Assembly (NCBI GenBank): GCA_002702685.1
Contig: PABD01000225.1
Span: forward strand, 1-32,110
DNA: 32,110 nt
Origin: Planctomyces sp.
GTDB lineage: Bacteria > Planctomycetota > Planctomycetia > Planctomycetales > Planctomycetaceae
Direction: 5' to 3'
The notes beneath the pieces are model-generated. The model had not been told where the DNA came from and made no database searches. It saw only the letters and a list, made by a program, of their open reading frames with translations. Position numbers and translations under genes: made by a program. Position 1 is the first letter of the stretch. Each line of letters begins with the position of its first letter. Of this stretch, positions 9,008-12,950 are shown piece by piece.

Positions 9008-10951
9008 ATGCGTTCCGATACAGGTCGATTCCGATTTCTCCTTGTCATGTTCTTAACTGTCGTCGCGGGTTTTTCCGGCACCGCCTTCGCTGCGGAGGAT
9101 GTCCCATCCCGGCCGAATATTCTCTGGATCAGTTGCGAGGATATCAGCCCGCATCTGGGGTGTTATGGGGATCCGCATGCGATTACGCCGAACGTCGATC
9201 AACTTGCAACAGAGGGAACACGGTACACGCATGCCTTCACTTCCGCCGGAGTGTGCGCTCCCTGCCGGAGCGGAATTATTACGGGCGTTTATCAATCGTC
9301 GCTCGGCACGCATCACATGCGGTGCGAAGCCCAGTTACCGAAGCGCGATGGGGAACTGTATGTGAAACCGTTTCCGATGTATCTGCGGGACGCGGGGTAC
9401 TACTGCACCAACAACAGCAAGCAGGACTACCAGTTCAAGACGCCGAAAGGGACATGGGACGATTCCTCCGGAAAAGCGCATTGGCGAAATCGCAAAAACA
9501 AAAACCAGCCCTTCTTCGCCGTGTTCAACTTCGTCGGTTGCCATGAATCCGGCATCGCCGATACGGACAAGTACATTAAAGTCACGGAGGATCTCAAACC
9601 GGAAGAGCGACAGGAGGCGGACGCCCTCACGACCCTCCCCCCCTACTATGCCGATACGCCAACCATCCGCGAAGACTGGAAACGCAACTATGAACTGATC
9701 ACTGCCATGGATCATTGGGCGGGCAATCTGATTCAGGAGCTAAAGGACGAAGGCCTGTATGAAAACACCATCATTCTGTTCTGGTCCGATCATGGCGTCG
9801 GTCTGCCTCGGGCAAAGCGCTGGTTGTACGATTCCGGGACGCACATTCCGCTCATCACCCGTATTCCGGAACAGTATCGCGCGGACGGTCAGGGAAAACC
9901 GGGGACGGTAACTGATCAACTCGTCAACTCGGTCGACTTCGGTCCGACAGTGCTGAACCTCGCAGGGGTCGAGATCCCCGACTACATCCAAGGGCAACCT
10001 TTCCTGGGTAAGAACCTGCCGGCCCCGCGCGACTATGTTTACGGCGCGCGCGACCGCATGGACGAGCGGTACGACATCATCCGCATGGTTCGCGACAAAC
10101 AGTATAAATACATTCGCAATTTCGAACCGTGGAAACCGATTCTCGAATACGTCAGCTACCTCGAACAGGGGGCGACGATGACGAATCTGCGCGACCTGCA
10201 CGAAGCGGGACAGCTCCCCGCGGAAATCGACAAGCTCTTCACCGACGCCAAAGCGGTCGAAGAACTTTATGACTGTGAAAGCGATCCCCACGAAATGCAA
10301 AATCTCGCGACGGATCCCGCATATACCGATATTCTGGCGCGCCTCCGCGCTGAACATCTCCGCTGGATGAAGGAAGTCCGCGACCTCGGTTTGATTCCCG
10401 AACCGATCCTGCACGAACGTCGGGCCGAAGTCGGAAGTGAATACATGATCCTGAGACAACCCGGCAGCCTGGAGTACATGGATCGGTTGATGAAGTACGC
10501 GAACGCCGCCACCGGAGGTGAGGTCTCGATTCTGCGGGACGGCCTCAGCGATGACGACAATGTCGTGCGGTACTGGTCGGCAACCGGGATGGGCAACCTC
10601 GCGAAAGGGGGAGCACTCAACGGACAACAAGCGGATAAGCTGAAAGACCTCGCTCAGCACGATCCGACTCCGGTCGTCCGGATTCAGGCCGCCCGCGCGC
10701 TGTGCTATCTGAACATGACGGAGGAGGCTCTGCCGATCCTGCTGAAACATCTCGACGAAGGAACGCAATGGGACCGCGTTTTTGCCGCGACCGTGCTCGA
10801 CGAGATCGATGAACAGGCCCGACCAGTCATCGATGAGATGAAGGTCGGCCTTCAACCCGTTCCGGAATTCCACTCGAATGGCAAGTACCGGGTGCGGATC
10901 ATGAATCGGGCACTCAACCAGTTGCAGGGAACGAAGAACAGCGTGGAATAA
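9008..10951 (+). CDS. Secreted sulfatase with C-terminal HEAT-like region
   Basis: The 647-residue protein begins with a signal peptide at about 1-29. The sulfatase domain opens with RPNILWISCEDISPHLGCYG, whose E44-D45 are likely Ca2+ ligands. The maturation motif is CAPCR at 83-87. C83 should be converted to formylglycine by a formylglycine-generating enzyme, which is not in this window. D261-H262 (FWSDHG) are further expected metal ligands, followed by KRWLYDSGTHIPL. After about residue 490 the sequence turns into short alpha-helical repeats (DDDNVVRYWSATGMGNL, TPVVRIQAARALCYL) typical of HEAT repeats. Planctomycetes carry many such enzymes for sulfated polysaccharides; the substrate is unknown. 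AGAGG is 7 nt upstream of the ATG. The gene is monocistronic in appearance. Confidence 0.93.
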   Translation: MRSDTGRFRFLLVMFLTVVAGFSGTAFAAEDVPSRPNILWISCEDISPHLGCYGDPHAITPNVDQLATEGTRYTHAFTSAGVCAPCRSGIITGVYQSSLGTHHMRCEAQLPKRDGELYVKPFPMYLRDAGYYCTNNSKQDYQFKTPKGTWDDSSGKAHWRNRKNKNQPFFAVFNFVGCHESGIADTDKYIKVTEDLKPEERQEADALTTLPPYYADTPTIREDWKRNYELITAMDHWAGNLIQELKDEGLYENTIILFWSDHGVGLPRAKRWLYDSGTHIPLITRIPEQYRADGQGKPGTVTDQLVNSVDFGPTVLNLAGVEIPDYIQGQPFLGKNLPAPRDYVYGARDRMDERYDIIRMVRDKQYKYIRNFEPWKPILEYVSYLEQGATMTNLRDLHEAGQLPAEIDKLFTDAKAVEELYDCESDPHEMQNLATDPAYTDILARLRAEHLRWMKEVRDLGLIPEPILHERRAEVGSEYMILRQPGSLEYMDRLMKYANAATGGEVSILRDGLSDDDNVVRYWSATGMGNLAKGGALNGQQADKLKDLAQHDPTPVVRIQAARALCYLNMTEEALPILLKHLDEGTQWDRVFAATVLDEIDEQARPVIDEMKVGLQPVPEFHSNGKYRVRIMNRALNQLQGTKNSVE

Positions 10952-12207: not shown

Positions 12208-12387
12208 AAGCACCCCACAACAGCGCACACCCGAACACACTTCATAACTCAAAATCCGCTTTTTTCGTCCGGAGTCGCTTCTCACCGGCAAGTCGATTCA
12301 TTAGGATGCCGATCCGATATTTGTTTGAGTAGAGAGGGCTGGCCCCGGTCGGTCCGTTCATGCTTACCCCTCGAAGGTTTTACCATC

Positions 12388-12495
12388 ATGGCGAAAACAC
12401 AACGTAGACTGAAAAAAGCGAATCACGGTCGTCGTCCCGCGAGTGCCAAAGCGCGTAAAGCGAAACGGGCTCACATCAAACTGACGACTCACTAA
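12388..12495 (+). CDS. 35-residue basic protein resembling ribosomal protein bL37
   Basis: The open frame MAKTQRRLKK...KLTTH is 35 residues and very basic, with about half its residues Lys, Arg or His. Its centre, KKANHGRRPASA at 9-20, closely resembles the KANHGKRP segment that ends the 24-residue mycobacterial large-subunit protein bL37, as I remember it. GAAGG is about 9 nt upstream of the ATG. I infer a small ribosomal-subunit-associated protein that would bind rRNA through its positive charge. The frame is too short for many gene callers. It is followed 19 nt later by strong hairpins. An alternative is an unrelated nucleic-acid-binding micro-protein, but the shared ANHG-RP core argues for bL37. 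Confidence 0.72.
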   Translation: MAKTQRRLKKANHGRRPASAKARKAKRAHIKLTTH

Positions 12496-12950
12496 TATAT
12501 TTTGCCGTACAGACGGCGCGTGGCGATGGGTTAACGCTGCGCGCCGCTGAAAGAGCAATGAAGGCTCTTTCAGCGATGCTGTTGCCACTTCCTTACAAGG
12601 AACTGTCCTCCCGATGAGCTGGGTTCGGAGAGACAGGCAGGTGGCCCCTTTTCTTTGTGGAAGTTTCCCCAACTTCCCGCCCCCGACGTCGCCAACCCAC
12701 TGGCCGACACGCTCGCCCTCCACAGAGCGATTCCCTGTCAGCAATGAGGCTGACTGCCGTTTTCGATTCTGATCCAGCTGCTTGCTCCCGTCCGTAAGCT
12801 GCGCCCACCTTGCGCACCTCGGAACCGTTACGCCTTGTCCGGGAGAAGCTTTTCAGAATCGTGTCTCATTCGCGGGAACAACGAGGATCTCCCAGAGGAA
12901 CGTCCCTCGTCTCCTCGGTTCCCGGTTCACAGAATTAGAAGGATTCGTTG
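12496..12950. other. Non-coding stretch with several hairpins after the bL37-like gene
   Basis: About 455 bp contain no convincing gene; minus-strand frames here are low-quality shadows. Three hairpins are visible. One pairs GGCGCG (12515-12520) with CGCGCC (12540-12545). The second is a perfect 12-bp stem at 12545-12575. The third pairs GGAAGTT (12659-12665) with AACTTCC (12671-12677). I found no RNase P, tmRNA or SRP RNA signature on either strand. The last part must hold the promoter and leader of the next gene. Confidence 0.5.
12545..12575 (+). terminator. Perfect 12-bp stem-loop without T-tract
   Basis: CGCTGAAAGAGC at 12545-12556 pairs fully with GCTCTTTCAGCG at 12564-12575 across a 7-nt loop. 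No run of T follows on the plus strand, so it is not a classical intrinsic terminator. It may protect the 3' end of the bL37-like transcript or act as part of a structured RNA. Confidence 0.5.

Follow-up and report, generated by a model that had tools for sequence, protein, structure and literature searches.

A 35-codon planctomycete gene probably encodes a form of large-subunit ribosomal protein bL37

Introduction

Ribosomal protein bL37 is called actinobacterial in the structural literature (PMC5876184, PMC10085706), or is said to be known so far from mycobacterial ribosomes only (PMC10618245). In actinobacterial ribosomes it consists of an N-terminal helix and a C-terminal loop, and lies in a pocket formed by H39, H40, the H41/H42 joint, H72 and H89 (PMC5876184), beneath the tip of the 5S rRNA and with its N-terminus on H89 (PMC10085706). 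A very short reading frame in a 32,110-nucleotide stretch of Planctomyces sp. DNA (the window) raises the question of whether it is a gene at all and, if so, whether its product is bL37 and could occupy the same place in the planctomycete ribosome. If the assignment proposed here holds, a ribosomal protein near the peptidyl transferase centre is confirmed outside the actinobacteria.

Results and Discussion

The reading frame

The frame starts with ATG at 12388 and stops with TAA at 12493-12495 of the forward strand, exactly as in the original prediction (Table 1). A longer frame starting from a TTG at 12325 was rejected as the gene because relatives share the ATG start. The GAAGG upstream lies within CCCCTCnnAGGTT, which is common to three members of the genus. 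Both sequence features first noted in the product, the ANHG[KR]RP core and a second basic block, AKARKAKRAHIKL, are present. AlphaFold2 places a helix at residues 20-29 in a weak model of low overall confidence (mean pLDDT 76, pTM 0.31). The contig belongs to an assembly of 4.3 Mb that is 66% complete.

Table 1. Features of the bL37-like locus, in positions of the window
Feature	Position	Strand	Remarks
Predicted bL37 gene	12388..12495	+	35 aa, product MAKTQRRLKKANHGRRPASAKARKAKRAHIKLTTH
Codons 1-17: basic N-terminal segment and KKANHGRRP core	12388..12438	+	residues 5-17 common with actinobacterial bL37
Codons 18-35: basic C-terminal block	12439..12492	+	no counterpart in 24-aa actinobacterial bL37
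Likely ribosome binding site, GAAGG	12373..12377	+	10 nt 5' of ATG; sequence-based inference
Strong perfect hairpin, CGCTGAAAGAGC/GCTCTTTCAGCG	12545..12575	+	stem of about 12 bp; downstream of the bL37 gene; no T-run

Evidence for a coding gene

A frame that is short and situated inside a 740-base intergenic stretch might be open by chance, but the codon changes refute this reading. In comparisons within the genus (36 codons), synonymous and non-synonymous changes number 11/0, 14/1 and 12/1, and more distant pairs of relatives give a similar pattern, e.g., 14/0 and 10/1. The proteins of the window and two congeners are 97-100% identical. At the DNA level, identity amounts to 86-92% within the frame and to about 40-70% over the 100 bases flanking it on either side. 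The frame is conserved in the relatives examined, a point on which the original prediction held, with 43 of 59 giving a match at E<=1 and most E values falling between 1e-16 and 1e-6; the nearest relatives of the window in this search are planctomycetes. An alignment of 40 diverse sequences from several families of the phylum has M1, A11, G14 and R16 invariant and R6, K9, N12, H13 and P17 near-invariant, and the members of the family have in common a KKANHG-x-RP motif and a basic C-terminal block. This conservation across dozens of genera, together with the NF047429 profile match given below, leaves a chance frame with next to no probability. We conclude that 12388-12495 is a protein-coding gene, conserved and under strong purifying selection.

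Assignment to bL37

The results from hmmscan indicate that the product matches NCBIfam NF047429 (ribo_Plancto_bL37, "50S ribosomal protein bL37") with 65.3 bits (E value 4.5e-18), for which the curated cut-off is 40 bits. The match spans the full model (residues 1-32 on model positions 1-32 of 32), the window protein adding only three C-terminal residues, TTH, which are common to the genus. All 40 members of the alignment match this model. No Pfam model matched the planctomycete protein. The bL37 identity given in the original prediction is borne out; its implied novelty is not, since planctomycete bL37 is already a curated NCBIfam family, named as such by NCBI, and the identification, although right, is not new.

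The link with the actinobacterial protein is narrower. The mycobacterial bL37 model, NF047428, matches residues 5-17 (E value 2e-4, 21.5 bits) and its cut-off of 30 bits is not reached; an actinobacterial match of only about 13 residues, below the family cut-off, counts against the assignment. Actinobacterial bL37 (NF047428; Mycobacterium tuberculosis, PDB: 7kgb chain v; M. smegmatis, PDB: 5o60 and 5xym; C. acnes, PDB: 8crx) has the same basic N-terminal segment and KANHG[KR]RP core. It differs in having 24 residues, with a longer N-terminal segment, and in stopping directly after the core without the C-terminal basic block. A search of the PDB with the planctomycete profile retrieved four actinobacterial bL37 chain sequences at E values of 0.0018-0.048, the M. 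tuberculosis protein at 0.0018, while the C. acnes chain was reached at 4.5 only. In the reciprocal search, the M. tuberculosis bL37 fragment placed 178 bL37 segments first among 22,939 segments from six-frame translation, with many genes represented repeatedly.

A common stretch this short and basic makes descent difficult to establish by sequence, and a short basic ANHG-RP peptide might have arisen by convergence, unrelated to actinobacterial bL37 and placed at the same or another rRNA site. We regard this as very unlikely: the mycobacterial model finds 36 of the 40 diverse sequences at E<=0.1, the ANHG[KR]RP identity and the basic segment before it are in register, and shuffled controls of an mL102 fragment (see below) fail to retrieve the family. 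The frame contains the KANHG[KR]RP core with a basic segment before it, which characterizes bL37 in the broad sense, and as judged by these resemblances its product is a homologue of bL37.

Proposed site and role

Since the basic segment and the ANHG-RP core are retained, the best inference is that planctomycete bL37 has the same pocket and the same H89-bracing role as in actinobacteria. The basic N-terminal half and the KKANHG-RP loop would lie in the 23S pocket of H39-H42, H72 and H89 under the tip of the 5S rRNA, and the protein would brace H89, which is part of the peptidyl transferase centre. No structure of a planctomycete ribosome was found in the literature searched. We consider it highly probable that the product of the frame is this large-subunit protein in its planctomycete form, with this role.

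The gene lies outside any ribosomal operon, in the window as well as in one group of relatives, its distribution is patchy, and the core alone is common with actinobacterial bL37. These features count against the assignment and would also suit a conserved basic RNA- or ribosome-binding micro-protein that is not stoichiometric in the 50S subunit, such as a factor for assembly, stress or hibernation which enters the pocket transiently. Such a factor seems very unlikely, as structures solved in two lineages show the relatives (the bL37 chains and mL102) as structural components of the ribosome, and neither Pfam nor the PDB yields a relative with another role.

The neighbours of the gene in the window are a 376-residue protein with a weak kelch match and, on the other side, a 303-residue protein for which no Pfam or NCBIfam match was found. 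Outside the family of the window, downstream genes are conserved in 43-60 loci of relatives, including loci named Pirellulaceae, Pirellulales and Thermoguttaceae. The first of them, where read, encodes a FabA-like dehydratase, and at some loci a gene for a TrmB-like methyltransferase comes next. This is conservation of order, not of function.

Distribution in the phylum

The survey employed a profile built from the 40-sequence alignment. Within the class, 98 of 199 genomes match at E<=3.4e-11 and the next best value is 0.016 or worse, which is a clean gap; at a looser E<=0.1 the number rises to 115, 17 of them with weak matches only. A draw across the phylum gives matches at E<=0.001 in 99 of 392 genomes; for the more complete genomes the count is 72 of 216. 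The profile search gave no strong match in the listed genomes of three families (f2, f3 and f4), nor in two genomes of the window's own family. We take f2 and f3 to be probably Isosphaeraceae and Gemmataceae, Gemmata being the less sure. A degenerate codon pattern for KANHG-x-RP likewise found no match in 23 genomes without a strong profile match; it also misses one known carrier, which reads KPANHG, and the absence of bL37 therefore rests on the profile. Thus bL37 is widespread but not universal in planctomycetes and, as whole families are without it, their ribosomes in general can dispense with the protein.

Nearly all of the best 80 loci from a scan of contigs are labelled planctomycete. 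Among the matches listed is a 100% identical copy in the metagenome-assembled genome (MAG) Planctomycetaceae bacterium HKST-UBA56. Also among the matches listed is an 88% identical bL37 on a contig labelled Emcibacter sp., an alphaproteobacterium; this is likely a mislabelled or mixed MAG.

Absence of uL30 and shape of the 5S rRNA

From work on Borrelia it has been proposed that bL37 and a short uL30 derive from a longer uL30, the N-terminal helix of which takes up the pocket of bL37 (PMC10618245). The N-terminal extension of Borrelia uL30 occupies this pocket, but is part of uL30 (PMC10618245). Planctomycetes offer a test of this proposal because bL37 is present and uL30 undetectable. A search for uL30 (PF00327) gave no match in 30 planctomycete genomes, carriers and non-carriers of bL37 alike, while 13 of 14 control genomes were positive. 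The absence of L30 from this group has been published, with a small RNA-binding protein specific to the PVC group mentioned as a possible substitute (PMC7203096). In the 14 spc operons with a locatable uL15, a uS5-like frame precedes uL15; its spacing to a motif inside uL15 is 72-81 nt in 12 of them, which leaves no room for uL30, and 128 and 251 nt in the other two.

In the planctomycete genomes searched, the bL37 gene is neither attached nor adjacent to a uL30 gene. The protein persists without uL30, and the two are separable, although a uL30-free bL37 does not refute the split hypothesis. That an extended uL30 replaces bL37 in the families lacking it was considered and rejected, as uL30 was detected in neither group.

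The planctomycete 5S rRNAs examined are 108-110 nt long and have a shortened helix IV/loop D tip. According to the alignment, several bases are missing there compared with E. coli, in carriers and non-carriers alike. A 5S difference between the two groups was looked for as the cause of bL37 absence and rejected, both having the shortened tip. Our conjecture is that the C-terminal block of bL37 fills the space at this tip.

A link to mitoribosomal proteins

The best PDB match of the planctomycete profile is not a bacterial chain but mL102 of the mitoribosome of the ciliate Tetrahymena (PDB: 6z1p chain AQ), with an E value of 1.3e-7, ahead of M. tuberculosis bL37. The mL102 sequence NRNARPPKKANHGARPCSSVMRRLKKKY aligns with the profile over the core and the C-terminal block. 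Unlike bL37, mL102 has 109 residues with a long N-terminal part, belongs to a mitochondrial ribosome without 5S rRNA, and is not named as bL37 in PMC7326499. With the mL102 fragment as the query in turn, 177 bL37 segments came out ahead of all others of the 22,939 (best E value 4.4e-6), and five shuffles of the fragment gave no such ranking. The protein has been described as lying between the central protuberance and the L7/L12 stalk (PMC7326499), which is compatible with the bL37 pocket. We estimate the chances as about even that planctomycete-type bL37 and alveolate mL102 form one family, an ancient pocket protein independent of uL30.

A connection between mL102 and bL37 was not found in the literature searched, and none of the bL37 papers found in an open-access library is a mitoribosome study by title. 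Such a link would make a protein described as newly identified in the mitoribosome the relative of a bacterial one. It is this link and the uL30-free setting that may be useful to ribosome specialists; the gene itself offers little that is new.

Two further chains, mL184 (PDB: 9g6k) and mL102 (PDB: 9i05), probably from Toxoplasma mitoribosomes, contain PKKGNKGCRPVCRAMRKIRKR, which can be aligned to this stretch of Tetrahymena mL102 at E values of 0.0048 and 0.099. They have NKG instead of NHG, and with the planctomycete profile alone the match is not significant (E value 0.19). By alignment they look like further relatives of Tetrahymena mL102, although the bacterial match of mL184 by itself does not suffice for an assignment. 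In the main texts of two Toxoplasma mitoribosome papers, mL102, mL184 and bL37 are not named. Chain UI of 9g6k (35 residues, mL184) and chain AH of 9i05 (396 residues, mL102) are identical at 27 of 27 aligned residues, and are apparently the same mitoribosomal peptide under two names.

Non-coding surroundings

Rfam searches gave nothing in the window at gathering scores, nothing meaningful around the bL37 gene, and no match at 12600-12790. A 115-nt region around the hairpin downstream of the gene has a folding z of -3.93, and the hairpin is possibly a transcript end or a stabiliser of the mRNA 3' end. The congeners seemingly have other hairpins at this place, judging by their letters alone. 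A sigma-70 promoter scan was empty. About 85 bases 5' of the gene, at 12300-12320, both congeners retain the element ATTAGGATGCCGATCCGAT amid diverging surroundings; it is possibly part of a promoter. Farther away, at 9008-10951, the window holds a sulfatase-family gene, with arylsulfatase-like matches that fall under the equivalog cut-offs. Between the bL37 gene and the next, the non-coding stretch at 12600-12790 has 52-84% identity per 50-base block among the congeners, mostly above that of the flanking blocks, and may serve as leader to the gene at 12948.
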